This document shows positions 1-58,803 of a DNA stretch of 64,000 nt, in pieces (positions within the stretch are counted from its first letter, which is position 1; each line of letters begins with the position of its first letter). Made by a program: the position numbers and the translations under genes. The stretch spans positions 94,707,716-94,771,715 of the forward strand of contig CM038229.1 of the NCBI GenBank assembly GCA_021442155.1, written 5' to 3'. This DNA comes from Cymbidium sinense. Lineage: Eukaryota; Streptophyta; Magnoliopsida; Asparagales; Orchidaceae. The notes beneath the pieces were generated by a model. That model saw only the letters and a program-made list of their open reading frames with translations, made no database searches and was not told the DNA's origin.

Positions 1-268
1 ATGTGGATCTTGCTTATCTTGACTTCTCAAAGGGATCATGAGTTATTGCGACTAGCCTTTTACTACTTTCTTGAGATATATTAGTCTTATTTTGTGTCTT
101 TTCTCATTTGATTTTAAGTTGTATTTGCTCTTTAATTTTTTTCCATTGTACTTAGATTGGGGTTTAGCTCTTTAGGTTTCTTGTAGCTCTGAGTAGAACT
201 TTGAGCTTTACCCCTTTTAAGGAGATTATATCCTTTATTTTTATGGTAATAAAATTCTAACTTTCCTA
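1..268 (+). mobile_element. LINE 3' terminal fragment (copy 1)
   Basis: This is the 3' end of a non-LTR retrotransposon whose upstream part lies outside the window. It aligns by eye along its whole length with the 3' ends at about 3,690-3,979 (plus) and 57,219-57,500 (minus). Shared blocks include a GGATCTTGCTTATCTTG-like start, a CTCAAAG-GATCATGA block, a GGGTTTAGCTCTTTAG block, and a terminal TTAAGGA-ATTATATCC then TTTATGGTAATAAAATTC. After a short CTAACTTTCCTA the sequence becomes C-rich telomere-like repeat. There is no reading frame, so I read it as 3'UTR. That it is LINE-derived is inferred from the related end of the coding LINE at 38,400. Confidence 0.8.
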
Positions 269-2211
269 AAAAAAACCCTAAATACTAAATGCCAAACCCT
301 AAACCCTTAACCCTACCCTAAACCCCAAAAAAAGCTAAAATCCTAAACCTAAATTAAATAAAACCTAAAAAATAAAATAAATTAAAACCTAAACTAAAAC
401 CTAAACCTAAACCTAAAAAAAATAAAATAAATAAAAAAACTAAAATAAAATAATTAAAATCTAAACTAAACTAAAAAAAAACCTAAATAAACTAAAACTA
501 AACCTAAAATAAAAAAATAAAATAAAATAAAACTAAATAAAAACTTAAACATAAAAAAAATAAACCTAAAAATAAATAAAAGATAAAACCTAAACCCTAA
601 ACTAAAAAAAAACCAAAACCTAAAATAAAATAAAATAAATCTAAACCTAAAAAAAAAAACCTAAAATAAACTAAACCTAAACTTCAACCTAAACTAAATA
701 AAATAAAATAAACTAAAAATAAACCTAAACATAAACTAAAAAATAAAACCTTAAAATAAACCAAAATAAAATCCCAAATCCTAAACCTAAAAATTAAAAT
801 AAAACATGAACCTAAACCTAAAAATAAAATATAAACCTAAGCCTAATAAATAAAATAAAAATAAACCTAAATCTAAACCTAAAAAAATAAACTAAAATAA
901 ATAAACTAAACTAAATAAAAATAAAAATAAACTTAAATAAAATAAAAATAAAATAAACTAAAATAAATAAGAAATAAAGTAAATAAACCTAAACCTACTA
1001 ATTATTTAATTAAAAAATAAAATAAAAAATAAAAATAACCCTAACCCAAACCATAAACTGATCCTAAACCCTAAACACTAAACTAAACCCTAAAAAACCT
1101 AAACCCTAAACCCTAAACCCTAAACCCTAAACCCTAAACCTAAAACCCAAAAAAACCTAAAACCTAAACCAAATAAAACTTAAAAAAATCTAAACTAAAT
1201 GAAATAAAAAAATAAAATAATATGAAAACCAAAACTAAAACCTAAATCTAAATGTTACCCTAAACCTAAACCTAAAAATAAAATAAAATAAAAATTAAAA
1301 CTAAACTAAAATAAAATATATAAAACCTAAACTAAACTAAAAAACAAAATAATCATAAAATAAAAAAACTAAATAAAATAAAACTAAACATAAAATAAAA
1401 AAAACTAAACCTAAAATATAGTAAAATAAAACTAAATAAAACCTAAACCTAAATTATAACCCTAAAATAAATAAAAATAAAACCTAAATCCTAAACTAAA
1501 AAAAAACCTAAACCTAAAATAAATAAATAAAATAAAATTAAACCTAAACTAAAATAAACTAAACTAAAATAAATAAAACCTAAACCTAAACCTAAAATAA
1601 ACTAAACCTAAATCCTAAACTAAATAAAATAAAATAAACTAAAAAATAAACCAAAAAAAAAAAAAATAAAGCCTAAAAATAAACTAGAAATAAAACCTAA
1701 AACCTAAGCCTAAAAATAAAATAAAACCTAAACCTAAACCTAAAAAATAAAAATAAAACCTAAAATTAAAAATAATATAAAATAAAACTAAACTAAAAAT
1801 AAACTAAAATAAAACCTAAACTAAATAAATAAACTTAAATAAATAAATAAACTAAATAAAATAAAAAAATAAACCAAAATAAAATAAATAAATATAAACT
1901 AAATAAACCTAAACCTACTAGTTTAATTTAAAACCTAAACCTAAAATAAACCATAAAAAATCCTAAACCTTAAACCTTAAACCCTAAATCTTAAAACCCT
2001 AAACCCTAAACTCGAAACTCTAAAACCATAAACCATAAACCCTAAGCTACCTACACCCTAAACCCTAAAACCAAAAAACCATAAACTAAACCCAAAACCC
2101 AAAACCTAAAACCCTAAACCCTAAACCTCAAAACCAATGCCTAAAGCCTAAAGCCTAAACCCTAAACCCTAAACCTAAACACTAAACCCAACCCTAAACC
2201 CTAAACCCTTA
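269..2211. repeat. C-rich degenerate telomere-like satellite array
   Basis: Nearly everything here is CCCTAAA and its derivatives (CCTAAA, CTAAA, AATAAAATAAA), with the plus strand almost free of G. The arrangement mirrors the G-rich arm. The reverse complement of the conserved higher-order core appears near 995-1,020 and 1,896-1,935 (AACCTAAACCTACTAGTTTAA-like), and each is followed by a block rich in canonical CCCTAAA (about 1,060-1,150 and 1,960-2,210). Long AATAAAATAAA variant stretches fill the rest. I see no gene. Confidence 0.93.
1098..1142. repeat. Canonical CCCTAAA run
   Basis: About six consecutive near-perfect copies of the plant telomere heptamer CCCTAAA, the cleanest such stretch in the C-rich arm. 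Comparable clean runs in the opposite strand sense lie at about 11,231-11,273, 28,895-28,932, 33,628-33,662, 49,094-49,129 and 50,048-50,086. They fix the parent motif as the seven-base plant type. Confidence 0.95.
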
Positions 2212-3979
2212 ACTTAGTATCACTTTTGGCCTAACCAGGTTATGTTTTGACCTCTAGCTTTTGTGTGGTTGGTGGTTGCTACCTGGTTCTGTCCTTCCAC
2301 CTGGTTGGTTAGTTTTTTTGGCTGGTTGCTATCTTCTCCCCTTGGTACTTCAATTATTGGTGAGATGGTTTCTGCCTAGCTTTATTCTATTTTCTCAGAC
2401 CGGTTGGTTTGTTGGCCCTTGAACTTGAATTTTTTTTGCTAGTTTTCATGGTTGGATGGGTAGCCTTCCTTGTGGGAACTACTATTGTTGCCTTCCTGGT
2501 CTTCTTTGGAGAATTCTTTACTTTTGGGTTTGCCTCCCAGCCCTTGATGTTTATTGATGGATCCTTCTTTTGCCTTAGTTTTGCATTTGGTTATTCTCTA
2601 GGATTAGCCTTTGTTGGGTGAGTTATTTGTAGCACATTTAGTGTTGTTATTATGCTTCCTATCGATTTAGTTTTTGTTGTTGAGGAAGCTTGGTTTTTGA
2701 TAGGTTTTGGCTAGCTAGTGTTGTTGCTTTTCTAAGGTTGTTGTGCTCTTTTGGACCTCTATTATGTGGTTTTGTTGGTTTTCTACATTTCCCACTGGGA
2801 TGCTTCCTTTATTGGTTACTTATGATGGGTTGTTCTCAGTGGTTGCCTTAATGGTTGTTTTACTTTTGGTTTGGTTGGAGGACTTTAGTTGTCCTTGGAA
2901 TCTTGGTTGGTTAATTTTATTCATTGTTGGTCTTTTCCTTCTTCAAAGCTGGAGCCTTTACTATGCTAGCCAAACCTTTGTTGATCCTTTAGATTGGACT
3001 TTTGGTTTTGGTGGTTGGTTGCTACCTTTGGCCCCTTTTTTTGTGAGGTCTATATCTTTTGGTGATTTGCACTCAGTAACTTTTGTTTCCTTGATGGTTT
3101 CATTTTGAGATTTAATCCTTTTGTGGTTGTTCACCCTAGTTTGGCATGGTGACGCTACTTTTGGGACATTGGATTGAGGGATCCCTATCTTGGTTTTTTA
3201 TTTCTATTAATTGCATGGGTCCGGTGCTCAATGGTTGGTTCTAGTTTTCCTAGTTTGTAGCTTGGATGGGTATTTGAATAATGGCGCTTGTTTGTGTTCT
3301 AGCTTTGTTCTAGCCTCTCTTGGTTACGTGATTAATATTATGGTTTTGTTTATGGTTTGGTTTCTAGTCGGTTGCTAGTTTGCTCTTTGTTAAATGGTGC
3401 GTGATCCGAACTCTATATGGCCTTGATGTTTGCTTATATCGTATGCTATGATGGCTTTGATGTTACTCACATCTTCTCTAGTTGGTAGCATTACATATGA
3501 TTGTAACCCTTCTTTATGAAGTTTGATGATTTATGTATTGTTACCCCTTGAGATGATCTTAATTGAGCTCAGCCTTCTCTTTCAGCCTCTCTCCTTTTCT
3601 CTCTTTTATCCTTATTCTTTTAGTTATGACTTTTTCTTTTGTAGTGTGTAGATTTCTTTTATAGTTGGAACTTTACAGTGGAATGGTCATTACTCACCAA
3701 CCCAAGTGTTGTTGTGATCTTGCTTATCTTGCAATCTCAAAGAAATCATGAACTACAGACTCATTCTTTTACTATTTTCGTGAATTTTTTTGTCTTACTC
3801 TATGTCTTTTCTCTTATGCTTTTAGCTATTGTATTTGCTCTTTCATTTTGTTTTGTTTTCTAATGTAAGATGGGAGTTTAGCTCTTTAGTTTTTTGTAGC
3901 TGAGAGTAGTTAAATTTTAGAGGTTTACCCCTTTAAGGACATTGTATCTTTTCCTTTATGGTAATAAAATTCTTTCCCC
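2212..3979 (+). mobile_element. 5'-truncated LINE, 3'UTR segment (copy 2)
   Basis: About 1.77 kb of non-telomeric, G/T-rich sequence sits between C-rich repeats on both sides. Its last 290 bp match copy 1 and the reverse complement of 57,219-57,500, ending in TTTATGGTAATAAAATTC and then TTTCCCC and CCTAAA repeats. Upstream it carries repeated GGTTGGTTGCTA-like phrases that recur in the reverse complement of 38,400-40,430, the 3'UTR of the coding LINE. Open frames at 2,409-2,621, 2,743-3,108 and 3,678-3,863 encode only L/V/F-rich strings from TTG/GTT-rich DNA, so I do not call them genes. The 5' end stops abruptly against CCCTAAA, consistent with the 5' truncation usual for LINEs. Confidence 0.78.
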
Positions 3980-4373
3980 AAACAAAATCCTAAACCCTAA
4001 AAAAACCTAAACCCTAAACCCAAACCAAACCCTAAACCCTAAACTAAACACAAACCCTAAACCCTAATAAACTTAAACCCTAAACTCTAAACCCTAAACT
4101 CTAAACCAACCCACCTAAACTAAACCCTAAAACCCTAAACCCTAAACCCTAAAGCCTAAAAACACTAAACCTAAACCCCAACCCTAACCCTAAACCCTAA
4201 ACCCTAAAGGCATAAACCTAAACCCTAAAACCTCATAAAACCTAAACCTAAACCTAAACCCTAAACCCAACTATAACACTAAACCTAAACCCTAAATAAA
4301 CCTAAACCTAAAGTAAGTAAATAAATTAGAAAATAAACTTAAACCCTAAAATTAAACCCAAACCTAAGCCCTA
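3980..4373. repeat. C-rich telomere-like repeat between two insertions
   Basis: CCCTAAA with many two- and three-base variants separates the LINE segment from the glycine-rich retrocopy. It belongs to the same C-rich arm as 269-2,211. Confidence 0.92.
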
Positions 4374-4830
4374 AGAATGGGCAAAACCTAAATGACAGAA
4401 CATCATCATCAACTAGGATCCCCAGATCCGTGGTCAAGGTGAAGGCAGAGAGGCGGCTTATCAAGTGGAGGTGGGGGGATGGAGGTGGTGGATATAGAGG
4501 TGGTGGTCGAGCAAAGGTTTATGGAGTGGGAGGAGGACGGTTATAGCCATGGTGGCGGAGGAGGAAGAGATTGGGATATGATGGTGGATCACTAAGAGGC
4601 CAAGGTGGTTCTGGGGGAACTGAGAAACTAAGAATGATCGATCCACCTCTTGCTTATGGAATTGTCTTTATAGTAGAGATAGTTCTAGTTATCTAGGGTT
4701 TTTGATTTGTTCTATCTGCTCAATTTTGATCAATGTTGTCTCTTCTCTTAGAAACCTTGTGTTACTTGGTTGATGAAATCAAAAATAAGAAATGTTGAAT
4801 CTAAATTTATTCTCTATGAAAAAAACAAAA
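4374..4830 (+). pseudogene. Processed retrocopy of a glycine-rich (RGG-type) protein mRNA, 3' part
   Basis: A G-rich island within C-rich telomere repeat. Translating the plus strand in shifting frames gives glycine-rich pieces typical of plant glycine-rich RNA-binding proteins: SSGGGG near 4,460, GGGGYRGGGR about 4,480-4,512, HGGGGGRDW about 4,548-4,575, and GYDGGSLRGQGGSGG about 4,573-4,620. The frames are joined only through single-base shifts, and an in-frame stop lies near 4,438, so the gene is dead. A roughly 190-bp AT-rich 3'UTR-like tail follows and ends in an A-rich tract at 4,818-4,830. Absence of visible introns plus the A-tail suggest a reverse-transcribed mRNA. No RNA-recognition domain is present, so the exact parent (RRM-type, cold-shock-type or other RGG protein) is unknown. 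The sense strand runs with the C-rich strand, like the LINE copies. Confidence 0.62.
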
Positions 4831-6283
4831 CCTTAAACCCTAAACTAAAACCTTAACCCTAAACCTAAAACCTAAAACCTAAACCCTAAACCCTAAACCC
4901 TAAACCTTAAAACCTAAAACCCTAAACCCTAAACTAAATTAAACCTTCTAAACCCTAAACCCTAAACCTAAAACCCAAACAAACCCAAAACCCTAAACCC
5001 TAAACTAACCTTAAACCCTAAAGCTAAAACCTAAGCCTAAACTAAATAAAGCCTAAAAAATAAAAAAATAAAAAAATAAAAAACTTAAACCAATATAAAT
5101 TAAAAAATAAAATAAAATAAACCTAAACTAAAACCTAAACCTAAACCTAAAAGAAAATAAAATAAACATAAAACTAAATTAAAATAAAATAAAAAAACCT
5201 AAACTAAAAAAATAAAAAAAACCTAAATAAAATAAAATTGACCTAAATTAAAATTAAAACAAAATGAAAACTAAATAAAACCTAAACCTAAAAAAAATAA
5301 ACCTAAAAAAAAATAAAATATAAAACCTAAGCCCTAAACTAAAAAAACCTAAACCTAAAATAAAAATAAAATAAACCTAAACCTAAACCTAAACTAAAAT
5401 TAACTAAACTAAAATATATAAAACCTAAAGATAAACTAAACCTAAACTAAATAAAATAAAATAAACTAAAAAATAAATAAACCTAAACTAAAAAAATAAA
5501 ATCTTAAAATAAAACTAAAATAAAAACTAAAACCTAAACCTAAAATAATAAAATAAAAAACCTAAACCTAAACCTAAAATTAAAAAAAAAATATATATAT
5601 GAACCTAAAAATATAATAAAAATAAAGCTAAACTAAAAAATAATAAACCTAAACCTAAAAAAGTAAACTAAAATAAAACCTAAACTAAAATAAACAAAGT
5701 TAAAATAAATAAACTAAACTAAATAAAATAAAATAAACCTAAATAAAAAATAAAATAAACTAAATAAACCTAAACCTACTAGTTTAGTTAATTTAAAAAA
5801 TAAAAAAATAATAAAAAATTAAAAATAAAAGAAAAACCAAAACCCTAAAACTAAACCCCTAAACCCCTAAACCTAAAAAACCTAAACCATAAACTCTAAA
5901 CCCTAAACCTAAACCCCAAACCCTAAACCCTAAAACCTATAACCTATAAACCATAAACCCTAAACCCAAACCCCAAACCCTAAATTGTAAACCTTAAACC
6001 ATAAATTAAATAAAAAATCTAAACCTAAACTAAAATAACCTAAAATAAATAAATAAAAAAATTTAAACCTAAATAAATAAACTAAAAGCAATACGTAAAC
6101 TGAAACTAAAACCCAAAACCTAAAATATATAAAAATAAAAAATAAAACTAAACTACATTAAAATAAATAAAAGCCTAAACTAAACTAAAATAAAATAAAC
6201 CTAAAATATAAAAACCTAAATAAAATAAAATTAAATGTAAAAATAAAATAAACCTATAATAAAATAAAATAAAACCAAAAAAG
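4831..6283. repeat. C-rich degenerate telomere-like satellite array
   Basis: This continues the C-rich arm: a CCCTAAA-rich block at 4,831-5,040, an AATAAAATAAA variant block to about 5,760, the reverse-complement core AACCTAAACCTACTAGTTTA near 5,765-5,785, then another CCCTAAA-rich block at 5,830-6,010. It shows one complete higher-order unit in the opposite orientation to everything after 6.7 kb. No gene is seen. Confidence 0.92.
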
Positions 6284-6711
6284 AGCATGAATTTTTCTTT
6301 AGTACTAACCAAGATCCTTTTATGGTTCATAGGAATACCACAATATTTAGCATCATTTCTATCCATCTAGATGAACCGATAAGGGTAATAATAATTAAAA
6401 TGTTGATGACCATTCATAGTATTTTGAAATAGACTTAAAGAAGTTGATATAAAGAAAGTGAACCCTAAAATAGTTGATATTAAATAAATCATCATACCAA
6501 AACCATAATTTAGAAGCAATAACACCATTAAAAAACATGATTTACTTTTGTAATATGAAAGTAATAATAGCACTTTGAAGGTAAATAGAACCCTTTAGTC
6601 AGCATGAGTCCATAAGAATAAAGTTATTCAAAATCCACCATGCTTAAACCTAATAAGAAATGGGAATGATGTTATTCTAAAGTTTAATAAAACATTAGAG
6701 GGTTCTTTTTA
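6284..6711 (-). pseudogene. LINE ORF2 fragment (zf-RVT region) at the strand-switch point
   Basis: This 428-bp stretch aligns by eye, end to end and in the same plus-strand direction, with about 40,890-41,317 inside the full LINE. Scattered substitutions and small indels separate them. On the minus strand it encodes the zinc-binding region that follows plant LINE reverse transcriptases. The segment WFWYDDLFN is kept, and MDRNDAKYCGI near 6,330-6,366 matches MDRNDAKYCGI near 40,950. Of the zf-RVT cysteines only the first survives (KCYYYFH against KCDCCFH in the full copy). Both ends are cut: the LINE's 5' side (right) meets TTTAGGG and its 3' side (left) meets CCTAAA. It therefore sits exactly where the telomeric strand flips. 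Confidence 0.85.
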
Positions 6712-7900
6712 TTTTATGGTTTAGGTTTATTTTTATTTTAGGTTTAGTTTTAATTTTATTTTATTTTATTAGGTTTAGGTTTTAGGTTTTATTTTAGGTT
6801 TATTTTAGGTTTTATTTTTTTAGTTTAGGTTTAAGTTTATTTTATTTTATTTAGTTTAGTTTAGTTTATTTAGGAGGTTTATTTAGTTTATTTATATTTA
6901 TTTAGGGTTTAGGTTTTAGTTTAGGTTTAGGTTTATTTTAAAGTTAGGTTTCTATTTAGTTTTATTTTATTTTCTTTGGTTTATTTTATTTTTATTTTTA
7001 TTTAGTTTTATTTTATTTAGGTTTCATTTTAGATTTATTTTTTATTTAGTTTATTTTTATTAGTTTATTTTAATCATTTAGAGTGGTGGTTTAGGGTTTA
7101 ATATTTTAGGGTTTAGGGTTAGGGTAGGGAGGGTTTAGCTAGTGGTTTTAGGGTTTAAGATTTAGGATTTGGGTTTAGTTAGGGTTTTTTTAAAACTTTT
7201 CAAAATTAAATAAACGGTTTAGGTTTATTTAGTTCATTTAGTTTTTTTAGTTTTTTTATTTTTTTATTTTAGTTTATTTTGAGGTTTCAATTTAGATTTA
7301 GGTTTAATTTTTTATTTTATTTTATTTTTTTATTTTATTTTTAGGTTTAGGTTTCATTTTTATTTTAAGGTTTAAATTTTTTATTTTATTTTTAGGATTA
7401 GGTTTGTGTTTATTTTAGGTTTATTTCTAGGTTTTACTTTTTTAGTTTAGGTTTAAGATTATTTTAGTTTATTTTATTTTATTAAGTTTAGTTTATTTAG
7501 GTTTAGTTTTATTTATTTTAATTTAGTCTAGATTTATTTTATTTTATTTTATGTTAGTTTTATTTTAGTTTAGGGTTTAGGTTTTATTTTATTTATTTTA
7601 GTGTTTTAGTTTATTTCTTAGGTTTTTTTATTTAGTTATTTTAGTTTATTTTATTTATAATTTGGGATTAGTTTTATTTTATTTATGTTTTATTTTAGGT
7701 TTATTATTATTATTTAGATTAGGTTTTATTAATTTTATTTTATTTATTTTTTAGGTTTAGTTTAGTTTAGTTTAGGTTTAGGTGGGGGGATAAGTTAGGG
7801 TTTAGAGTTAGTATGGTTAGTGGAGTGGCTAGGGTTTAGCATATGGTTAATGATTTAGTTTATGATCATTAGTATGGAGCTTTAGTTTTTAGTTTGGTTA
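6712..7900. repeat. G-rich telomere-like array, first higher-order unit
   Basis: TTTAGG, TTTATTTTA and TTTAGTTTA variants, with a TTTAGGG-rich block around 7,090-7,190 followed by the core CAAAATTAAATAAACGG at 7,201-7,217. From about 7,790 a noisier G-rich block with many AGGG, GGTGG and TTAGTGG variants begins and runs into the next unit. No coding signal. Confidence 0.9.
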
Positions 7901-10900
7901 AGATTTAGAGTTTAGATAGGTGGTAGGTAGGATTATGGTGGGAGGTTTAGGGTTTTGGTGAAGCAGGGTAGGGAAGATTTGGTGGGTTTAGATTATTAGG
8001 GTTGGTAATGTGGGTCAGTTTGGTTTGGGTTTTAGGGTTTTGTGGTTTAAGGTTAAGGTTTTTTTTGTTTTTTAAATTAAGCAAACTAGTAGATTTAGGT
8101 TTATTTAGTTTATTTAGTTTATTACTTATTTAGGTTTATTAAATTTTTATTTTATTTAGGTTTATTTTTTTATTATTTATTTTTTTTTAGTTTAGTTTAT
8201 TTATTTTAATTTGGTTTTTTACTTTAGTTTATTTTTTTAGATTTAGATTTAGGTTTATTTTAGTTTAGTTTTATTTTTATTTTATTTTAATTTCTAGGTT
8301 TGCATTTTATTTTTATTTTAAGTTTATGTTTAAGTTTTTTTATTTTATTTTCGGTTAAGGTTTTAGGTTTTATTTTATTTTTTAGGTTTATGTTTTAGGT
8401 TTTATTTTAGGTTTACTTTAGGTTTTATTTTTAGTTTAGGTTTAGGTTTATTTTAGTTTATTTTATTTATTTTAGGTTTAATTTCTTTTAGTTTGGGTTT
8501 AGGTTTTATTTTGATTTAGTTTATTTTGTTTAGGTTTAGGTTTATTTTATTTTTATTTTAGGTTTAAGTTTTCTTAGGTTTATTTCTTAGGTATAGGTTT
8601 TATTTAGTTTTTATTTCATTTTATTTTAGGTTTAGGTTTAGTTTTATTTTATTTAGGTTTTAATTTAGGTTTATTTTAATTTTTAGTTTAGTTTAGTTTT
8701 TATTTATTTTATTTTTAAGTTTAGGTTTATTTTAGGTTTTAGTTTAGGTTTTCATTTTTTATTTTTACTTTATTTTGGTTTAGGTTTATTAATTTATTTT
8801 ATATTTAGATTTTATTTAGTTTAGGATTAATTTTTAGGTTTTATGGTTTGAGTTTAGGGTTTATATTTTTTTGTTTATTTTATTTATTTATTTTTATTTT
8901 TTATATTTGAAGTTTAGATTTTTTCTTAGTTTATTTAGGTTTTCTTATTTATTTTAGGTTTAGGTTTTATTTAGTTTTATTTTATTTTATTTTAGTTTTA
9001 TTTTTTTATTTTATGGTTAGTTTTATTTTAATTAGGTTTTATTTTTAGTTTTATTTTATTTTTTTAATTTATTTTAGGTTTTATTTATTTTATACTAGTT
9101 TAGTTTTAATTTTATTTTATTTTATTTCAGGTTTAGGTTTAAGTTTTTTTTTATTTAAGTTTAGGTTTATTTATTTATTTTATTTTTTAGGTTTTAGGTT
9201 TGGGCTTTAGGTTTGGGGTTTGTTTAGTTTGGTAGTTTAGGATTTAGTGTTTAGGATTATCGATTTTAGGGTTTAGGGTCGTGGTTTAGGGTATGTTAGG
9301 GTTTTTTTTGTTATTTTTTAAAATTAAGTAAACCAAGTAGTTTAAATTTATTTAGTTTATTAGTTTATTTATTTATTTTAGTTTATTTTATTTATTATTT
9401 TTATTTAGGTTTATTTTATTTTTTTTATTTAGTTTTTATTTATTTTATGCTTATTTATTTTAGTTTAGGTTTCTTATTTTAATTTATTTTAATTTTAGGT
9501 TTATTTTTTAGTTTAGTTTTATTTTTATTTTAGTTTTAGGTTTTGGTTTTATTTTTATTCTTAGGTATAGGTTTAGATTTCTATTTTATTTTATTTTTTT
9601 GTTTAGGTTTTAGGTTTATTTTTAGGTTTAATTTTTTAGTTTAGGTTTAGGTTTATTTTAGTTTATTTTATTTTATTTAGTTTATGTTTAGGTTTATGTT
9701 TATTTGAGTTTTAGGTTTATTTATTTTAGTTTAGTTTATTTTATATCGGTTTAGGTTTAATTTATTTTATTTTATGTTTAGGTTTTTATTTTAGTTTAGG
9801 GTTTAAGTTTTATTTTCAATTATTTTAGAGTATTTTAGGTTTATTTTCAAGTTTTGATATTTATTTCATTTTATTTTATTTTATTTAGGTTTTTTATTTG
9901 TAAGTTTATTTTAATTAGGTTTTATTTATAGGTTTATATTATTTTTTTAGTTTATTTTTTTTATTTTATTTTATATTTAGGTAGGTTTTTAGTTTATATT
10001 TATTTTATCTTATTTTATTTTTTAGGTTTATTTATTTATTTATTTTATTTTAGGTTTATTTAGTTTAAGTTAAGGTTTAGGTTTAGGGTTTAGGGTGGTT
10101 TAGGGTTTAGAGTTTAATAGGTTTATTTTAGTTCAGTTTAGGTTTATTTTATTTTATTTATTTTATTTTAATTTTAGGTTTAGGTTTTTTTAAAGTTGGG
10201 TTTTATTTTAATTTATTTTTAGGTTTATTTTTAGGTTTAGGTTTTATAATTTACTTTTATTTTGTTTAGGTTCATTTAATATATTTGACATTTAATTTTT
10301 TATTTAGGTTTTTATTTTAGGTTTATTTTATTTTTAGTTTAGTTTAGTTTTGTTTATTTTATTAGTTTAGTTTTGTTTTATTTTATTTTATTTTATGCTT
10401 TAGTGGTTTTTAGGGTTTAGGATTGGTTTAGGGTGAGGGGTTTAAGTTTAGTAAAAGTTGGGTTTAAGAGAGGTGGCTCAGGGTTATGGTTAGGGTTTAG
10501 TATTAGTTGTGGTTTAGGGTTTAGGTTAGTGGAGGTTTATGGTTTTTAGGTTTAGGTTTAGGGTGGGGTAGGGTTTAGGATTAGGTAGGCTAGTGGAATT
10601 TAGTTTAGATTAAGGATTTAGGTGGGTTTATGAGGTATTTTTTAATTTTAAAATTAAGTAAACCCAGGTTTAGGTTTATTTAGTTTAGTTAGTTTACCTA
10701 GTTTTAGTTTTATTTTTTATTTTAGTTTATTTTGAGGTTTCAATTTAGGTTTAAGTTTAATTTTTAAGTTAGTTTATTTTAATTTTATTTTAGGTTTGGG
10801 TTTCATTTTTTTTTTTTTGAGGTTTAAGTTTATGTTTTATTTTATTAGGTTTAAGTTTTAGGTTTTATTTTAGGTTTATTTTAGGTTTTATTTTTAGTTT

Positions 10901-44314: not shown

Positions 44315-44372
44315 AAGAAAATAAAAAGGATATAGGAAAGGTTAGTTAAGAGAGGAGAGGTAGGCATGAGAT

Positions 44373-45683: not shown

Positions 45684-45912
45684 CCCAAAAGGTCAGATGC
45701 CTTAGCTAGAACATCCATATTTTAAGGTTGAGGCCAAGGAATAGAACTAATCATGACCAAGATCAATGTAAACATCTCCCAAGCGGCCGGATGTCGTGAG
45801 CCTTTAAAATTAGACAAAATTGAAGCAAAATCATCAAAATCCGATGAGGGATTCAAAATCTCAAAAGAGCGAGAGTAGAGGCGGGTCTCAAAGAATGAGA
45901 GAGTAGGGGTTT
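45684..45912 (-). promoter_or_regulatory. LINE 5'UTR / likely internal promoter region
   Basis: Read on the minus strand, about 229 bp from the junction with telomere repeat to the ORF1 start codon at 45,683. It begins with a pyrimidine-rich ACTCTCTCATTCTTTGAG and is clearly richer in GC than the rest of the element (for example GCGGCCG near 45,783). LINE 5'UTRs normally hold an internal promoter; no specific element is recognisable, so that role is inferred from position alone. Confidence 0.45.
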
Positions 45913-48900
45913 TGGTTTTGGGTTTAGGGTTTTGAGTTAGTAGTTTGTTTTATGGTTTAGGGTTTAGTGTTTAGGATTTAGGGTTTAAGATTTTTAGGGT
46001 TTAAGGTTTAAGGTTTAGGGTTGGGGTTTAGGGTTTGGTGTTTCTTTTCTATTCTTTTAAATTAAGTAATATAGGTTTATTTAGTTTATTTTTTTATTTT
46101 AGTTTATTTTATTTTTTTAATTTTATTTAGTTTAATTTTTACTTTTATTTAGTTTAGTTTATTTATTTTAGATTTATTTATATTTGTTTAGGTTTTATTT
46201 TATTTTATTTTTAGGTTTATTATTTTAGGTTTATTTTATTTTTTATTTTATTCTTACTTTATGTTTAGGTTTTTTTTAGTTTAGGGTTTAGGTTTTATTT
46301 TTTAATATTTTAGGTTTTATTTTTCAATTTATATTTTAGGTTTAGGTTTTATTCAATTTTTTATTTTAGGTTTAATTTATTTTAATTTTAAGTTTAAATT
46401 TCATTTTATTTAGGTTTTATATTTAGGTTTATTTTAATTTTTTAGTTTAGCTTAAGTTTTATTTATTTTATTTTAGTTTAGTTTTAATTATTTATTTTAC
46501 TTTATTTCTAGCTTTAGGTTTAGGTTTAAGTTTTAGTTTAGGTTTTATTTTATTTTATTCTATTATTTTATTTAGATGTAGGTTTTTTATTTATTTTATT
46601 TGTAAGTTTTATTTAGTTTAGGTTTTCATTTTATATGTTATTAGGGTTTAGGGATTAAGGTTTAAGGTTTATTATTATTTTAAGGTTTAGGATTTGGGGT
46701 TTAGGGTATAAGGTTTAGGGTTTAGGGTTGTAGGTTTTAGGGTTTGGGTTTTGGGTTTTGAGTTTTGGGTTTAGGGCTTTACAATTTAGGGTTTAGGTTT
46801 TGGGATTTTTTTTTAGGGTTAGTATTAGGGTTTAGGGTTTAGGGTTTGGGGTTTAGGATTTAAGGTTTAGGGTTTTAGGGTTTAGGGTTTAGGGTTAAGG
46901 CTTTCTTTTAGGTTTAGGTTTATTAAGTTTATTTAGTTTATTTTTATTTAATTTACTTTATTCAAATCTTAAATTTTATTTAGGTTTATTTTAATCTTAT
47001 TTAGTTCTGTTTATTTATTTTTGTTTATGTTTTTTAATTTTGTTATTATTTAGATTTAAGTTTGGTTTATGCAAATTTTTTATTTATTTTATTTTATTTT
47101 ATTTTTTTAGGTTTAGGTTTTATTTTTTTTATTTTAGGTTTAATTTAAGTCTTTTTAGGTTTAGGTTAGATTATTATTTTAGGTTTATTTTAGGTTTATA
47201 TTTTAGTTTAGGTTTAGGTTTTTATTTTAGGTTTAGGTTTAATTTTTATTTATTTTTAACTTTATTTTTAAGTTTAAGTTTTATTTAGTTTGATTGATTA
47301 AGCTTTATTTTTTAATGTTTAGTTTTATTTTATTTAGGTTTTATTTTAGTTTATTTTATTTTTTTTGTTTAGGTTTTATTTATTTTATTTTAGTTTAGTT
47401 TTTTATTTTATTTTATTTTATTTTTTAGGTTTAGGTTTAGGTTTAGGTTTAGGTTTAGGTTTAAGTTTAGGTCTAAGTTTAGGTTTATATTTTATCTTTT
47501 TTATTTTATTTTATTTAGGTTTAGGTTTATCTATATATTTTATATTTATGTTTTATTTAGTTTACATTTAGGTTTTAGGTTTCCAATGTTTTGGGTTTAG
47601 GGTTTAGGTTTAGTTTAGGGTTTAAGGTTTAGGGTTATTTTAGCTTAGTTTATTTTAGTTTAGGTTTAGGTTTATTTTATTTTGTTTATTTTATTTTTTT
47701 TTTTTATTTTAGGCTTAGGTTTTAGTTTAGCCATTAGGTTTACTTTTATTTATTTTTTAGGATTTATTTTAAGATTTAGGATTTAGGGTTTAAGGTTAGT
47801 TTTAGGGTTTAGGTTTATGATTTTTTGGGTTTAGGTTTTAAGGTTTGGGGTTTAGGGTTAGGGTTTTATTTAATTTTAGGTTATTTTTTGGGTTTAGGGT
47901 TTAGGGTTTTAGGGTTTAGGGTTTAGAGATTTAGGGTTTAAGGTTTAGGGTTTAGGGTTCTTAGTTTAGGGTTTAAGGTTTAGTGTTTAGGGTTTAGTGT
48001 TTAGGGTTTAGGATTAGGTTTAAGGTTTATGGTTTGGGGTTTAGGGTTTAGGGTTTAGTGTGTACACTTGGGTTTTATTTTAAAATTTTTCTTATTTTCT
48101 TAAATTAAGTAAACCAATAGGTTTAGGTTTATTTAGTTTATTCTTTATTTACTTTAGTTTATTTTAGTTTTATTTTATTTAGGTTTATTTTTTTAGTTTA
48201 GTTATAGTTATTTTAGGTTTATTTATTTTAGTTTAGGTTTTAATTTAGTTTATTTTTTTAGGTTTAGCTTTATTTTTATTTTATTTTTTAGGGTTAGTTT
48301 TATTTTTATTTTTTAGTTTAGGTTTAGGTTTTATTTTACCTTTTTGATTTAGTTTTAGGTCTTTATTTTGGGTTTATTTTTTAGTTTAAGTTTAGCTTAT
48401 TTTAGTTTATTTAATTTTATTTTATTTAGTTTAGGTTTAGGTTTTGGTATAGTTTATTTTTATTTTAGGTTTTTAGGTTTATTTATTTTAGTTTACTTTA
48501 TTTTAGTTTAGGTTTATGTTTATTTTATTTTTATTTTAGGTTTAGGGTTTTTTATAGTTTAGGGCTTAGGTTTTATTTTTTCATTATTATTAGCATTTTT
48601 AGGTCTATTTTTAGGTTTACATTTTATTTAGTTTTTATTTTATTTTATTTTAAGTTTAGTTTTATTTTATTTAAGTTTTTTATTTTAGGTTTTATTTTTT
48701 TAGTTTAGTTTAGGGTTTTATTTATTTTATTTTAGTTTAGTTTTTTTTAAGGTTTAGGCTTAGGTTTTATTTTATCTTATTTTTTATTTTATTTAGGTTT
48801 AGGTTTATTTATTTATTTTATATTTAGGTTTTATTTAGTTTAGGTTTAGGTTTTAGGTTTTGGATTTTGGGTTTAGGGTTTAGGGTTTAGGATTAGTTTG

Positions 48901-50786
48901 GTTTTAGGTTTATGGTTATTTTAGTTTATTTATTTTGTGTAGGTTTAGCTTAATTTTATTTTATTTATTTTATTTTATTTTAGTTTTTTTATTTTAGGAT
49001 TTAGGTTTTATTTTTTATCAATTTTTAGGTTATATTTTTTGGTTTAGGGTTTAGGGTTTAGGGTTTAGGGTTTTAGGTTTAGCTAGTTTTAGAGATTAGG
49101 GTTTAGGGTTTAGGGTTTAGGGTTTAGGGCTTAGGGTTTAGGGATTAGGATTTAGGGTTTAAGGTTTTAGGGATTTGGGTTAAGGGTTTAAGGTTTAAGG
49201 TTTAGGGTTAGGTTTATGGTTTTATTTTATTTTATTTTTTTATTTTTAAATTAAGTAAACCAATAAGTTTAGTTTTATTTAGTTTATTTTTATTTATTTT
49301 ATTTTACTTTTTTAATATTTCTATTTCATTTTTATTTAATTTTATTTATTTATTTATGTTTACTTATATTAGTTTATGTTTTAAAGTTTAATTTTAGCTT
49401 TAGATTTATTTTTTTTTATTTGATTTTATTTTATTTGTTAGGTTTAGGTTTTTTTTTTTTATTTTTAGGTTTAAGTTTAGGTTTTATTTTATTTTATTTA
49501 GGTTTTATTTTAGGTTTATTTATAAGTTTTATTTTTTAGTTTAGATTTAGGTTTATTTTTTGTTTATTTATTTTATTTAGTTTAGGTTTACTTCATTTTA
49601 GGTATAGGTTTATGTTTTATTTATTTTAGTTTAGTTTATTTTAGTTTAGGTTTAGGTTTATTTTATTTTTATTTTAGGTTTACATTTTTTTAGTTTAAGG
49701 TTTAGGTTTTATTTTTTATTTATTCTTAGGTTTTTTTTAGGTTTATTTTTTAGGTTTAAGTTTTATTTAGTTTTATTTTATTTTGTTTGAGGTTTGTTTA
49801 TTTTTTTTTTTAGGTTTACTTTTATTTTATTTTAGTTTTATATTTTAGGTTTATTTTTTTTAGTTTAGTTTAGGTTTTATTTATTTTATTTTTGTTCAAT
49901 TTTAATTTTATTTTATTTTATTTGTAGGTTTAGGTTTAGGTTTTATTTTATTTTATTATATTTTAAGTATTTTATTTATTTTATTTTTTATTTTATTTAG
50001 TTTAGGTTTAGCTTTTTTTGGGTTTTAGGTTTTAAGGGTATAGGGATTAGGGTTTAGGGTTTAGGGTTTAGGGTTTAGGGTTTAGGTTTGTAAGTTTTAG
50101 GGTTTAGTGTTTATGGTTTAGGCTTTTAGGGTTTAGGGTTTAGGGTTTAGGATTCTGATTTTAGGGTTTATGGTTTAGGTTTAGGGTTTTAGGGTTTAGG
50201 GTTTAGGGTTTGGGGTTATGTTTAGGGTTTATTTAGGGTTAGGGTTTAGGGTTTAGGGTTAGAGTTTTTTTTATAATTTTATTTTATTATAAATTAAGCA
50301 GGTTTTGGTTTATTTAGTTTTTTTTAGTTTAGTTTATTTTATTTTATTTTTTATTTTATTTGGGTTTATTTTTATTTTATTTAGTTTAGTTTATTTATTT
50401 TAGTTTTATTTCTTTTTTAGTATATTTTTTAGTTAGGTTTAGGTTTAAGTTTATTTTTTTTAGTTTAATTTTATTTTATTTTATTTTATAGGTTTAGGTT
50501 TTATTTTTTTTTATTTTTAGGTTTAGGTTTTAGTTTTTATTTTATTTTTTTTATGTTTAGGTTTTAGGTTTTATTTTAGGTTTATTTTTAGGTTTTATTT
50601 TTTATTTTAAGTTTAGGTTTATTTTTAGTTCATTTTATTTTATTTAGTTATGATTTAGGTTTAAGTTTAGTTTAGTTGAGGTTTAGGTTTAAGTTTTACT
50701 TATTTTAGTTTAGGTTTTGGTTTATTTTTTTTTATTTTAGGTTTAGGTTTTTTTTAAGTTTAGGGTTTGTTGTTTTATTTTTTAAG
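45913..50786. repeat. G-rich telomere-derived higher-order satellite array
   Basis: TTTAGGG-rich blocks occur at about 45,925-46,040, 46,640-46,900, 47,590-47,640, 47,770-48,060, 48,860-48,920, 49,040-49,210 and 50,030-50,270. Cores lie at about 46,058 (AAATTAAGTAATATAGG), 48,101, 49,248 and 50,291. TTTATTTTA / TTTAGTTTA variants fill the spaces. The pre-block phrase TTTATATTTA-GTTTTATTTAG recurs near 47,535 and 48,815. Long frames such as 47,040-47,571 encode only F/Y/L repeats. No gene. Confidence 0.9.
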
Positions 50787-52503
50787 ATGTGGGATACCAC
50801 AGATCTTAGGGAATTTATTGAAGTGATTTGGTTGGTACAACATTAAGAAATGATTCATTATTTGAAGATAGAAATCATCACCCTATAATGGACTAATCAC
50901 TAGTAAGGACTCTAGGCATGATGGGTCTTGAATGTACGAGATTTTTCCCCACTTTATATAGAAAAGCGGGGTTTATTTTAAGTCGGGTTCATTAAGTTCT
51001 ATAGAGGCAAGCCTCCATAGATAATTACATCTTAAGAGATGAAATCCTTAAGAATACTCTTTGATTAAAGTAGAAATTAAAGTCTCCAAAGATTTCAAGG
51101 CTAGGTATCAAAAAATTGGTTATGTTTGGAAAATCAAATAGGATTGTTCAAAGAGAAGACTTATTTTAGAAGCAAAGGGAATAAGTAGGAAATTCTCATG
51201 ATACTAAGAAGCCCTGAGAATTCCAATCTATCCTATGGTTGGGCTTTATATGTTTGAAATTGAAGAGATTTATTTTATTGAAGTTGACATTTCAATAGAA
51301 AGCCGACTTATAATCCAATCAAAAATAAGGTTGTGGAAATGCTTAAGAAGTGAGGATTTGAGCTTGTAGCCAAGGAAATAGCTACCTCGGATCCTAAATC
51401 TAGAGCTTTAAAAGAGCCAAAGCATGACCTAAATCTAATCAAAAGGTGGACATAATGTTTTACCTCCACAAGAGTATATGGTAGTACACCTCCTGCTTTA
51501 AAATCACGTCATAAAGTCAGATGATTTTGCAAGATAGTTAGGTTTTATTATTTAGAGAGACTAAAGTCTTTAAACCCATTCTAAAAGAGACTAGAGCATG
51601 AGTGGTTTGAGTAATGACTAAGTGTAATGCAAATCTTTTAAATTTATTTATATTTGACACTTCATTTTGACAAAGGCTTTGGGATTTTCATGTCTAAAAT
51701 GCATGATGAAATGGATTATTGGCCAAATCAAGAGAAGAGAGTGAAGCTCGTTAGTAGGAGTAGCTCTCATAGGTCAAGCGGTTCCCATGCGTGCAAGAAT
51801 GAAGGCACTCAATTTTGCAAGAGTGGTAGAAGATGCATGCATGATATTAGATATACAACCACACTAAGGGGTCTAAATCTTTTAATTATCTTAATTTAAT
51901 GCCTAGGCTTTATGTGAGGGTATGACTTATTTAGAAATTTAATTATGAGTTCTAGTTGGATAAAAGATTTATTTTTCCTAAGAGCCTAATAGGATCTAGG
52001 CCATACAACAAAACATCAATCAAGTAAGAAACTAAGAAAAGGCATGCCATTTATAATGAACAAGTTAAACATATCATCAAACAATTTTATAACTAGCACA
52101 AAAGAATAAAAAGGCCGATCGGTCACGAAAAGAAAAATGGGTAGTAGCTCTACCCTTATACAACTAGATACATAGAAGAATAATTTCTAATTTATAAATG
52201 ATAAATGCTATTGGGAGTCTTCAAGTCTTCATGTTTTCATGTATCATCCTTCATCTTTGATATGGTTTGCTCCACTTCAAAGGCATCACATGGCCTCTAG
52301 GACAAAGCCTTCTAGCCAATACTCATCCTTATCCCCCCATAACACTAATCTTAATTCGATACATAATTACATTTAAAATAGGAAACATAAAACTAATTAC
52401 ACTTGCAAAATAGAGGTTAGCTAAACTTACATAGAACCCAAGCGTTATAATTATAATTTGAACTTAGCACCTGCACATGGGTAACCAACCCACATCCTAA
52501 CTT

Positions 52504-52572
52504 GGATTATGCTTAGGGGCTTAAAGCGCAAAAGAAGCGTAATATTTACTTTTGGGCCCTTAAACATAATCC
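52504..52572. repeat. Imperfect inverted repeat / hairpin
   Basis: GGATTATGCTTAGGGGCT at 52,504-52,521 pairs with the reverse complement of the segment ending at 52,572 (AGCCC-type arm, CCTTAAACATAATCC). Fifteen of 18 positions match, and two of the rest are G-U type. The loop is about 32 bases. Function unknown. Confidence 0.55.
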
Positions 52573-53216
52573 CCTACATGATTAAGTAAGTCTACCATCT
52601 AGTCTTTAAAACATACAACCTAACATCAAGTCTAAAATAATACATCACAAAATATAATATACATCACACCATGCACCTTCTAACATAAAGTTAGAAGTGG
52701 CAACTTAATTTAATGTATGTGTATTAAGGCTTGTGTGGTATGTCTAACTAGCATTAAGGTTAAGAATTTCTAAGTGTGAAAGGATTCAATTTAAAGGGTG
52801 GTTTCACTTCAAGAACTTTAATTGATTGGAAAGTTTTAATTTGTGTTTTGTTTGGTTTTGTGTGGCCTACACATAGAAATTAAGTATTATAAAGAGAAGA
52901 AAGAGAATTTCTCTCTTTCATCCCTACCTAAGCCACTTCTAAAGCATGTTAATTTGATTTAGTTCTCTTTAGTAAATGGCTTATTACACATTTTAAATTA
53001 ATCCTACATTTATGTTCATTTAAAATGATTATATTCAACATGAAAGGCATCTTAGGATTAACTTAATTGAATTACTATCATATGACATATATCAAGTTAT
53101 TCCTTTTCATCACATGTATCATGCATATGACTTAATTCTATGTATAACAATACATGCACATATTTTTTAGCACACTTTAAATGAAAGATACATATGTGTA
53201 TTTTGTAGAAAATGGG

Positions 53217-54350
53217 ATTCTCACTCATTAGCTAAATGCACATACAAGTGTATAAAGTTTTAAGCGATACTTCACCATTGTTAAACCCGGTGAGGTAAAG
53301 ACCTCCTTGGGGCTACTTAAAACCTTGCATCCCGAATGTCCAAACAAGATATACTCACTCTTCTTGAATACACATGAATGTACAAATGACTACTAGAATG
53401 GAAAATTATGCAAAAGTCATAGTTCTTTCAATTTAAGAAGATATTTTCATTCATTAGCTAAATGCAAATGCATGTGTATAAAAGTTTTAAGTGGATACTT
53501 AGCCATTGTTAAACCGGAGTGAGGAAAAGACCTCATTGGGGCTACTTAAAGCCTCACATCCCAGAATGTCCGACTAAATATACCCACTATTCTTGAATAC
53601 ACATGAATGTACAAATGACTACAAGAATGGAAAATCATACAAAAGTTGTAGTTCTTTCAATTGAAAGGAGATTTTCATTCATTAGCTAAATGCACATACA
53701 TGTGTATAAAAGTTTTAAGCATATGCTTTGCCATTGTTAAACCTTGGAAGTGAGGTAAAGACCTCATTGGGGCTACTTAAAGCATTGCATCTCAATATCT
53801 AGACTAAATATACCCACTATTCTTGAATACACATGAATGTACAAATGACTACAAAAATGGAAAATCATGCAAAAGTTATATGTCTTTCAATTTAAAGTAG
53901 ATTTTCATTCATTAGCTAAATGCAAATACATGGGTATATTATTTTAAATGAATACTTCACCATTGTTAAACTAGGGAGTGAGGTAAAAATCACTTTGGGG
54001 CTACTTAAGGCCTTGCATCCCACAGAATGTCTAGGTAGATATATCCACTATTCTTGAATACACATGAATGTACAAATGACTACAAGAATGGAAAATCTTG
54101 CAAAAGTTTTAGTTCTTTCAATTGGAAGGAGATTTTCATTCATTAGTTAAATGCACATACAAGTGTATAAAGTTTTAAGAGGATACTTCATTGTTAAACT
54201 AGGGAGTGAGGTAAAGACCCCATTGGGGCTACTTAAAGTCTCACATCCCGAATGTCGACTAGATATACCCACTATTCTTGAATACACATGAACATACAAA
54301 TGACTACAAATGAAAAATCAAGCAAAAGTTATATTTCTTTTTAATTGAAT
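53217..54350. repeat. Five tandem repeats of about 229 bp
   Basis: The phrase ATTAGCTAAATGCA (or a one-base variant) marks unit starts, with GCTAAA at 53,231, 53,457, 53,685 and 53,915 and GTTAAA at 54,146, so spacings are 226, 228, 230 and 231 bp. Each unit also carries CATTGTTAAAC, GAGGTAAAGACC-, TTGGGGCTACTTAA, CCCACTATTCTTGAATACAC and CAAATGACTAC. The unit is not telomere-related. The end units look as similar to each other as the middle ones. Confidence 0.92.
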
Positions 54351-56050
54351 TATTTATACATGTGAGCTAAAATTCTATGAATTCTAACATAGAAATACAT
54401 AGGAATGAATTCAAACAAATGTTTTTTTCTTTTCAAATGGGCTAAACATTTGTTAACATTCAAACCTTATGTAAATTCATATAGACTAAAGAAAGAGAAC
54501 TCCATATCACATGTTCTAAGCCATGAACGTGCAAGCTTATAAATATTTATAATTATAATCACTTCAAATATTATAGTTGATTTATATACTTTGAAAATAA
54601 CTATGATTTAATAGATATAATAGCCACACATATTATAAATTTAATTCAACACATGCAAGCTTAACATAAATAAAATTTCATTTGATTTAATTAATTTTGA
54701 AAAGATGAATGTATGATTTCAAATGACATATAACATTTAGCATGATTGGAAAGGAATAATAAGACATAAAACACATGTTCATTCAATCAAACTAATTTCT
54801 AAGGACAATCATGTCAAATAAAACCACTTAAAAAAATTAAAGCTTTTTTTTATGTATCATTTTGAAGTCATGTTTGATTTGATTTAAAATTGTGAAAAGA
54901 AGTTGCTGATCCTAACCCATTCCCATGTTTGTGATTTAATTTGGTTTAATGAAAAGCTAATTAGGAGAATTTTATAAGTTAATTAAGTCATCTTTATGCT
55001 TTAAGTACATTAATTAACCCTTACCTATATCACCTTAACATAACTAATCAAATAATTATGAGCCAACATTAAATACATAAAACAAAATTGCAATGATCCT
55101 AAGAAATAAAAGGGCCTAATGCAATTTGGCTCATAATTAATGATTAATTAAATTAAGAGATTTAATTAAGTACTCTTATGGTTTTCCACACATGTGAACT
55201 AACCATAACTTTCTTAAATGACTTTAGGCTATTAAACACCTAAAGACCTACCATAATTAATTAGTAATTAGGATCTGATAAATTTTAGATTTTAATTAGA
55301 TTAATGAAATCATTAATCACTTAATTAAATTTAAACTTAAATGCCATATGGTTAACTATCCTCCAAATGATGTTGACTTGGGGAAAAAATTAGGAAAGAG
55401 GTCCCAATTTAATCTCTAAGTCTCCTCATTATTAAATAGTGACAAATGAGCCAAATTTATTAATTAATTTACTATTCATGTGATTAATAAACCCTTAATC
55501 AAGTTAGGAGAATAATTAAGGCCCAATTAGTTAATTATCATAATTAATTAACCAATAAATCCCAAGAAAATTAGGGGAGCCGGATGTCATCCCAAGAAAA
55601 CTCAAAAATTTTAGGGATAACTAATTAATTAGGGAGTAATTAAAGTAATTAATTTATTAATTAAACCTAATTAAGCTCTAATTACTATTTAAAATCAATT
55701 AAGGATATTTTTGATAAATTCCTCTAAAATACCATGAAAATGAATATATGTATGTTTTTTTGTAATTTCTATGATTTTTATGATTTTCCAAAGTTTCAAC
55801 TAATTTAAAGGATATTTCATGATTTTTATAAATTCTTTTAATTTATTTTAACTAAATTAGACAATTTAAGCTTTAGAATGCAATATCTCTCAATCCAAAA
55901 TTCTTTGACTAGAAATTTTTATGGTATGTGTATTTTAACTTTAATTTTAATACTAAAATTTCAAAATTAATTTGATGTGTATTTTTTGGTTTAATAATGA
56001 AATTTGATTTTCTAAACTCAAATTAAGCTCAAAATATTCAATATAATTTT

Positions 56051-57218
56051 TTGGGTTTAAGGTTAGGGTTTTTCTACTTTTTTTTAATTATACCTTTTTT
56101 AAATTAAGTAAATCGATAAGTTTAGGATTATTTAGTTTATTTAGCTTACCTTTTAGTTTAGTTTTTATTTTTATTTTATTTTATTTCTATGTTTAGGTTT
56201 AGGTTTATGTTTTAGTTTAGATTTTTTATTTTTTATTTTTATTTTATTTATTTAGGTTTAGGTTATTTTATTTATTTTTGGTTTTAGTTTAGGTTTTATT
56301 AGACTTTATTTTATTATTTTATTTAGGTTTATGTGTATTTATTTATTTTATTTTAGGTTTTATTTAGTTTAGGTTTAGGTTTTTTTTTTTAGGGTTAGGG
56401 TTTAGGGTTTAGGGTTTAGGATATTTTTTATTTATTTTAGTTTATTTATTTTAGTTTATTTATTTTAGTTTATTTATTCTAGTTTAAGTTTTTTATTTTA
56501 GTTTATTTTTTAGGTTTAAGTTTAGGTTTAGGTTTATTTTTTAATTTAGTTTTATTTTATTTTATTTTTTAGGTTTAGGTTTTATTTTTTATTTTTAGGT
56601 TTAGGTTTAGTTTTTTATTTTAGTTTTTTAGGTTTAGGTTTTAAGTTTATTTTTTAGTTAAGGTTTAACTATATTTTTAGTTTATTTTATTTTATTTTAT
56701 TTAGTTTATTAGGTTTAGGTTTAATTTATTTTAGGTTTAGGTTTAGGTTTTATTTATTTTAGTTACTTTACTTTAGTTTAGGTTTAGGTTTATTTTATTT
56801 TATTTATTTTATTTTTTTTAGGTTTAGGCTTTTTTTAGTTTAAGGTTTAGGTTTTATTTTTTTATTTATTTTAAGTTTTATTTTATGTTTATTTTTTAGG
56901 TTTATATTTTATTTAGTTTTATTTTATTTTATTTTAGGCTATTTTATTTTATTTTAGATTTAGTTTTACTTTATTTAGGTTTTTATTTGTAGGTTTATTT
57001 TATTTTGTAGTATTGTTTAGATTTTATTTATTTTATTTTAGTTTAATTTTTATTTTTATTTTATTTTATCTTTCAATTTATGTTTAGGTTTAAGTTTTAA
57101 TTTAATTTTATTATTTTATTTTATTTAGGTTTAGGTTTATGTATTTATTTTATTTTTTAGGTTTTATTTAGTTTAGGTTTAGGTTTTAAGGTTTAGGGTT
57201 TATGGTTTCTTCTTTAGG
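56051..57218. repeat. G-rich telomere-like array between two insertions
   Basis: It opens with TTTAAGGTTAGGGTTTT and the core AAATTAAGTAAATCGATAAG at 56,101-56,120, followed by TTTATTTTA and TTTAGG variants. It includes a tandem TTTATTTTAGTTTA run near 56,435-56,480 and a TTTAGGG block at about 56,393-56,420. It ends in the 3' terminus of LINE copy 5. No gene. Confidence 0.9.
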
Positions 57219-58803
57219 GAAGTTAGAATTTTATTACCATAAAGGAAAGGATATAATGTCCTTAAAGGGTAAAGCTCAAAGTTGTCTTGCTCGGATCTAC
57301 AAGAAACCTAAAAGCTAAACCCCATCTAAGTATAATGGAAAAAAAAAATAAAGAAAATACAACAGTTGAAAAGCAAATGAAAAGGCACAATGTAAGACAA
57401 ATATAACTCAAGAAAGCATTAAAGGACTAGTCAACACCATCTCATGATCCCTTTGAGAAAGCAAGATAAGCAAGATCCACATCCATAATACTTGAGTTGA
57501 TGAGTAAAGATCATTCCATCTGTAAAGTTCCAACCTACAAAAGAAATGCAAAACATTACAAAGGCAATGGTCATAGCTCAAGAGAAAAGGATAAGGTAAA
57601 CAATTTAGAGGCGAGAAGAGAAGGCTCGGGCACACTTAAGATCATCTTAAGGGGCAATAATACAAATGAGCATCCAAAATTCATAAGAAGGGTTAAAGTC
57701 ATATGCATGCTACCAACCATAGAGAAGATATGAAAACATCAAGGCCATCATAGCCGACATACGATATAAGAAACTATCAAGGTAAATAGTCCATAGTGAT
57801 CTAGGCCTGTACCAAACAAATAGAGAAAAATAGCTAGACCAACCCACTAGCCAAAACCCACAATAGACCAATCACATAAAGCTAGCATCCCAGTTACACG
57901 GGATAGTGTGAGCTAAAAAACCAAGCGTAACTCCACCAAAGCCACCACTAAAGGAAGAGAAACACAAAAAGGTCAACATAAATGGGGAACAACACAACCT
58001 AGCAAAATAGTCCCAAAGGCAAAACAACAACCCACAGTATATCAGAGCACTAGCAATCCAAATCAAGGGCAAAATCTCCACCCAAATAATAAAATAGTAG
58101 AAGATAAGTAGCACTAGATGAAAAGCCATAGCATAGGGAGACCAAGAGGGCATCCAGAATTACCATCAAAACCATCACCAAGGTAGAAAAAAAAGCAAAT
58201 CCAACTTGACCAAAAGAAAATATTGGGAAATAAGGAGCCAAATAAACGAGGGAGTCAATACCAAAACCCAACATAAATCCCAAAACACCAAGCTAGGGCA
58301 CAAGCATCTAAGGAAAGACATTAGCCACCAAAACCCCTTAACAAAAAAACAACAACCAATCCTAAAATAAGACAACAAAATATAAGAGCTCATATTCACC
58401 ACTAATAAATTAGCCAATAAAATCACCCATGACCAATAGGATGAGCAATAGGAGAAATCAGGAGCGTAAAACTAGCACCCAAATCGAGAAAAAAATAAAG
58501 TAAAAGCAACTACACCCAAGAGAGGATAGCCAACCAGCAAACTAGAAACGACTAAAATTACCTAAACCATCCATTAAACTCAATCAACAAAACAAAAAAT
58601 ATCCATAATCAAACAACCACCAGCCAACCCAAATCGAGAATCAGACTTGCCACCAGCAGAGCAAGAAAAAATAGCCAACACATCCTTGACCAACTAACGA
58701 CTAACCGACAACCAACAAAACCAACCAAAAACATCACAAAAGGAAATAAACCAACCAATAACCAAACACCACCTAAAAATGAAAATAAACAAACCAAACA
58801 ACT
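57219..58803 (-). mobile_element. 5'-truncated LINE, 3'UTR segment (copy 5)
   Basis: About 1.6 kb on the minus strand ending in CCTTTCCTTTATGGTAATAAAATTC, then TAACTTCCCTAAAG, then CCATAAACCCTAAA repeat. Its last 290 bp match copies 1 and 2 closely (GGATCTTGCTTATCTTGC, CTCAAAGGGATCATGAG, GGGTTTAGCTTTTAGG, TTTAAGGACATTATATCC). The interior is G/T-rich on the sense strand with repeated TTGGTTGGTT phrases as in the 3'UTR of the full LINE. Truncation at 58,803 abuts TTTAGGG. The hydrophobic frames within are compositional. Confidence 0.82.

Follow-up and report, generated by a model that had tools for sequence, protein, structure and literature searches.

Long interspersed elements (LINEs) and a processed retrocopy lie in a telomere-like array of the Cymbidium sinense genome, all in one direction, and the question that this locus raises is whether a land-plant LINE is directed to telomeric repeats or whether the repeat itself imposes the direction. 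The window, the whole stretch of 64,000 nucleotides that we analysed (C16:94,707,716-94,771,715 in a 3.526-Gb assembly of 2174 contigs), is a telomere-like array carrying insertions. On the plus strand the array reads as CCCTAAA-type repeat to about position 6283 and as TTTAGGG-type repeat from about 6712; canonical TTTAGGG blocks alternate with blocks of an AT-rich TTTATTTTAGG derivative, and about 44.6 kb of array DNA is left after removal of the insertions. The features are as follows.

280..6283, plus strand: left array arm, in which plus is the C-rich strand, insertions inside
6712..64000, minus strand: right array arm, in which minus is the C-rich strand, insertions inside
1..275, plus strand: LINE copy c1, 3' end only, its 5' part beyond the window (83.6% identical to c5 over 275 nt)
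2212..3984, plus strand: LINE copy c2, 5'-truncated (shared LINE 3' end, alignment to the other copies)
4374..4821, plus strand: 5'-truncated processed retrocopy of a glycine-rich protein mRNA, from an amplified family (recurrent copies with flanks)
6284..6711, minus strand: internal LINE piece lacking a 3' end, located where the array switches strand (85.6% identical to c4)
31140..33235, minus strand: LINE copy c3, with an internal duplication (shared LINE 3' end, alignment)
38391..45905, minus strand: LINE copy c4, the longest, with decayed frames and a reverse-transcriptase piece (RVT_1 match)
57215..58803, minus strand: LINE copy c5, flanked by AAACCATAAAC, an 11-nt candidate for a target-site duplication (flank reading)

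The switch from C-rich to G-rich repeat on the plus strand at 6284-6711, with the internal LINE piece at the joint, is a breakpoint of the inversion type rather than two telomeres fused end to end. In an ungapped scan of the window, a conserved ACTAAATAAACCTAAACCTACTAGTTTACTTAATTTAAA-like motif (C-rich strand) was located between canonical and AT-rich blocks at 8103, 18145, 24956, 28737, 33414, 37727, 48131 and other positions; its recurrence hints at a higher-order repeat.

The five LINE copies share a 3' end made up of AATAAAATTC, about 10-18 nt and an A-tail, with ends near 268-275 and 3984 on the plus strand and near 31140, 38391 and 57215 on the minus strand, and they are 71-84% alike over their aligned parts. 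A-tails of 4-18 nt were seen in 104 of the 106 flanks examined, although the tail picked for c5 sits past its true junction. The 3' A-tail and the variable 5' truncation (c2, c3, c4 and c5 all start at different places) are both as expected for an L1-like LINE. In c4, one 113-aa piece matches RVT_1 (E=8.6e-15), and the best solved-structure match is L1 ORF2p (E=3e-10), with R2 reaching only 0.003. The match to Exo_endo_phos is weak (E=0.032; 14.4 bits, below the 24.5 cut-off), and a protein search returned two unnamed fragments and no lineage. Judged by these similarities, the element looks like an L1-like LINE with a LINE-type reverse transcriptase. An 11-nt target-site duplication could be placed as a candidate at c5 only; the array repeats blur the remaining copies.

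The initial annotation had reported that, in both arms, the retrocopy and five LINE copies follow the C-rich CCCTAAA strand, and reading of the 3' ends and flanks confirmed this one-way orientation. The sense strand of c1 to c5 is plus in the left arm and minus in the right arm, the C-rich repeat follows directly after each of the five 3' ends on the LINE sense strand (c1, for instance, ends in A8 and then CCCTAAA), and the retrocopy at 4374-4821 (plus) has the same orientation. The internal piece at 6284-6711 had also been said to agree: with its sense on the minus strand it fits the right arm, and the right arm only. Its intact 5' junction falls in AT-rich array, and it was left out of the orientation count because it lacks a 3' end and sits at the strand switch.

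The one-way orientation extends across the genome. An 18-base word from the LINE 3' end, searched on both strands, was found in 1311 forward and 1231 reverse copies (2542 in total; a control word gave 0 and 0). The opposite-orientation repeat GTTTAGGG was absent at 10-40 nt after the word in all 2542 copies (0 forward, 0 reverse), so that no copy ran with the TTTAGGG strand in this check. Meanwhile, CCCTAAAC was present at 10-40 nt past the word in 837 of the 1311 forward copies (1247 reverse rows), and CYTAAA at 12-42 nt in at least 1174 of 1311 (at least 89.5%; 2302 reverse rows); reverse rows give several matches per copy, and forward counts alone are used as copies. Counts with an N{0,30}CCCTAAA pattern (873 and 1072) were set aside because the LINE's own end can yield CCCTAAA. 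Upstream of the LINE, array was found in 12 of 33 distinct loci, every time of the C type and never of the G type.

What such agreement means depends on the target. L1-type endonucleases nick TTTT/AA-like sites. When nick-site words were counted on the window array after taking the insertions out, the G/T-rich strand carried 2543 TTTT/A sites and the opposite strand 28 (98.9% on the former); the corresponding counts were 5791 and 140 for TTT/A, and 252 and 25 for TTTT/AA. Since these sites lie on one strand of the array, any A-tailed LINE would insert one way, and the probability of six-of-six agreement, computed from the array sites, is about 0.94 for any TTTT/A-nicking LINE. The earlier estimate that such agreement would arise by chance 1 time in 32 therefore fails, the more so as two of the six insertions belong to amplified units. 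It is well supported that the one-way direction follows from the lopsided letters of the repeat; the same orientation is expected from target-primed reverse transcription in any strand-asymmetric satellite and is by itself no evidence of targeting. Thus, of the suggested parallel to TRAS and SART, directional insertion into a telomere-type repeat stands, while the argument from orientation alone and from independent insertions does not.

This asymmetry of nick sites also favors a rival explanation, in which an ordinary TTTT/A-nicking L1-type LINE inserted genome-wide, went one way wherever it met the array, and came to be dominated by array copies through amplification. We regard this explanation as less likely, in view of where in the array the insertions lie. 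All six insertion points (c1 to c5 and the retrocopy) fall in canonical-rich array, with p between 5e-6 (the simulation floor) and 6.5e-5 over three window sizes and two measures. With canonical blocks defined by GC of at least 0.26, a cut-off chosen after the data were seen, these blocks make up 22.9% of the window array and hold 186 of the 2543 TTTT/A sites (7%), 986 of the 5791 TTT/A sites (17%) and 370 of the 665 GGTTT/AGG sites. The insertions favor blocks whose share of TTTT/A and TTT/A sites is smaller than their share of the array. If c1 and the retrocopy are dropped, four of four insertions in blocks at this share still correspond to about 0.003 by simple arithmetic. By the same window test, the 5.3-kb insertion at 50770-56071, which contains five copies of a ~230-bp tandem repeat, was not enriched for canonical-rich array.

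The flank sample consisted of the first-listed 100 of the 2542 copies, all of which lie at 0.25-46.2 Mb of C1, at one end of one chromosome. There, 73 of 81 flanks were canonical-rich, compared with 24% of the window array; at 200-300 nt from the LINE 57 of 81 still were, and C1 arrays may therefore be more canonical than the window. All 100 copies adjoin array in C orientation or an array-borne retrocopy, one of them with a rearranged flank (L083, which has the tail and first repeat of its neighbor L082 and then leaves the array). A C-type word lies within 75 nt of the 3' end in 99 copies, the remaining one (L021) entering the retrocopy, and no G-type word occurs within 310 nt of the 3' end in any of the 100. 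In one word test, C-type words dominate 84 of the 100 flanks, and 21 reach the retrocopy family; some flanks fall in both sets. The lack of any clearly non-array flank among these 100 copies, which sort into 38-52 groups of flanks when the strictest calibrated cut-off is applied, further argues against genome-wide insertion by an ordinary LINE.

The sample may not represent the whole genome in every respect. On plus-strand copies, CCCTAAAC was found in 34 of 52 on C1, close to the 837 of 1311 genome-wide, while CYTAAA was found in 51 of 52 on C1 vs 1174 of 1311 genome-wide. CYTAAA is accordingly absent at 12-42 nt in 137 of 1311 plus-strand copies (up to 10.5%) vs 1 of 52 in the sample, and up to about one tenth of the copies elsewhere may therefore lie in more degenerate array or outside it. 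These 137 copies are consistent with an ordinary LINE, and they qualify the enrichment in telomere-type repeat that the initial annotation expected: the 100 sampled C1 copies agree with it, while some copies elsewhere may lie outside arrays. The word CCCTAAACCCTAAACC occurs 751,032 times genome-wide and 85 times in the ~44.6 kb of window array; by a very rough extrapolation, telomere-like array may total ~394 Mb, or ~11% of the assembly. Among arbitrary loci, 3 of 40 had array (10 of 160 windows of 250 bp), and two of these were among the three C1 loci. C1 may be array-rich, and 11% would therefore understate the chance expectation there. Location is thus a better signal than orientation, and the case for targeting is built on it; the initial annotation had not drawn on this evidence.

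Location has to be read against amplification, since units were amplified with their flanks and copy counts are therefore not insertion events. The retrocopy and c1 had been candidates for events private to the window; this was rejected, as both belong to such units. The retrocopy 3' end was found in about 30 distinct places among the fetched loci. Its shared repeat flank passed a permissive test in 29 of 50 raw fuzzy matches (window included), and 19 of the remaining 21 were chance by eye. A c1-type flank occurs at 11 of the 100 sampled C1 copies, in addition to c1 itself. In seven loci (L001, L046, L047, L048, L053, L057 and L058) a LINE starts shortly past the retrocopy 3' end, which points to an amplified composite. 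The insertions represented by the retrocopy, the c1-type flanks and this composite were thus amplified with the array. The glycine-rich retrocopy is also an amplified array component at L006, L007, L008, L048, L056, L057 and other loci; it seems to be 5'-truncated at the end of what we take to be its RNA-binding domain. L001, L046, L047, L048 and L053 are LINE-ended copies of ~1.0-1.1 kb with a common 5' start, RACAATTTK, downstream of the retrocopy 3' end; either a composite was amplified, or these are copies of a short non-autonomous element.

Carried to its limit, amplification would mean that almost every copy goes back to a few insertions in a single founding array, so that their orientation was inherited and is uninformative on targeting. 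The flanks common to the retrocopy places and to the c1-type copies fit this, as do the common 5' starts of L001/L053/L048/L046/L047, of L004 and L056, and of L034 and L035. We consider it improbable, because c2 to c5 have different 5' starts and diverge by 18-29% where aligned, and the sampled LINE bodies are 76% alike at the median (727 aligned pairs). Flanks were grouped by edit distance, with a threshold calibrated on random window array, and 80 C1 flanks formed the 38-52 groups given above (11-43 at looser cut-offs). BLAST single-linkage clustering of flanks was dropped because array flanks resemble one another, and 74 of 100 had fallen into one cluster. Counted strictly, there are about six independent insertions (c2, c3, c4, c5, the composite and the L034/L035 type) plus the retrocopy. 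On this count, a few uniform insertions followed by array amplification may account for the copies; by arithmetic, if about 50 of the 2542 copies were uniform and outside arrays, a sample of 100 would hardly reveal them, which, like the amplification of insertions along with their flanks, favors an ordinary LINE.

Weighing these points, we think it moderately probable that an L1-like LINE family inserted into telomere-type repeat, preferring canonical blocks, and that array amplification followed. The preference for telomere-type repeat over the remaining genome, and for canonical TTTAGGG over its AT-rich derivatives, is supported and not proven. An old L1-like LINE family would have entered the repeat by target-primed reverse transcription: on the T/G-rich strand, a putative endonuclease would nick GGTTT^AGGG or a site close by, position and activity both being presumed, and the LINE RNA would anneal by its short A-tail to the exposed T-run. 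T-runs are confined to one strand, and the sense strand would therefore always run with the C-rich strand. The A-tails pass mostly into CC or TCC of the repeat, where tail A and target AAA are indistinguishable. Later segmental amplification of the array would have carried the insertions along, giving more copies in the same orientation. A stronger version, to which we give slightly less than even weight, is that this land-plant L1-like lineage is specific for the canonical telomeric repeat, nicks GGTTT^AGGG, has interstitial arrays of hundreds of megabases as its home, and also carried a cellular mRNA into them.

Comparable elements are known from other hosts. According to passages of PMC2868851, TRAS1 of Bombyx mori goes in at the T-A step of (TTAGG)n, where its endonuclease cleaves the G-rich strand. 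Passages of PMC10088271 place TRAS1 in the R1 clade and list TRAS and SART, GilM and GilT, Zepp1, MoTeR1 and Tx1-1_ACar as telomeric-repeat elements. TRAS1 thus resembles the orchid LINE in inserting into telomeric repeat, and its T-A cut is the very step proposed here; unlike TRAS1 of the R1 clade, the LINE here is L1-like by structure similarity, lies in interstitial array and has a poly(A) tail, and its enzyme specificity is putative. Zepp1 (Chlorella, an alga) and Tx1-1_ACar (anole, a reptile) belong to hosts other than land plants and are set beside this LINE by description only. As for the array, the seed plant Cycas (PMC9827991) has TTTAGGG-type blocks that are heterogeneous, very abundant and not confined to chromosome ends, much as here; its variants are TTCAGGG, TTTAAGG and TTCAAGG, compared with the AT-rich TTTATTTTAGG of the orchid. 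The words "retrotranspos" and "transposable" are absent from the text of that paper. Among titles and abstract openings of the open-licence literature, we found no land-plant LINE with a telomeric-repeat target.

If the preference is real, telomeric-repeat targeting would extend to an L1-like lineage of a land plant, where it would be unusual. With its thousands of copies, this genome would then permit a statistical separation of target choice, array amplification and orientation.
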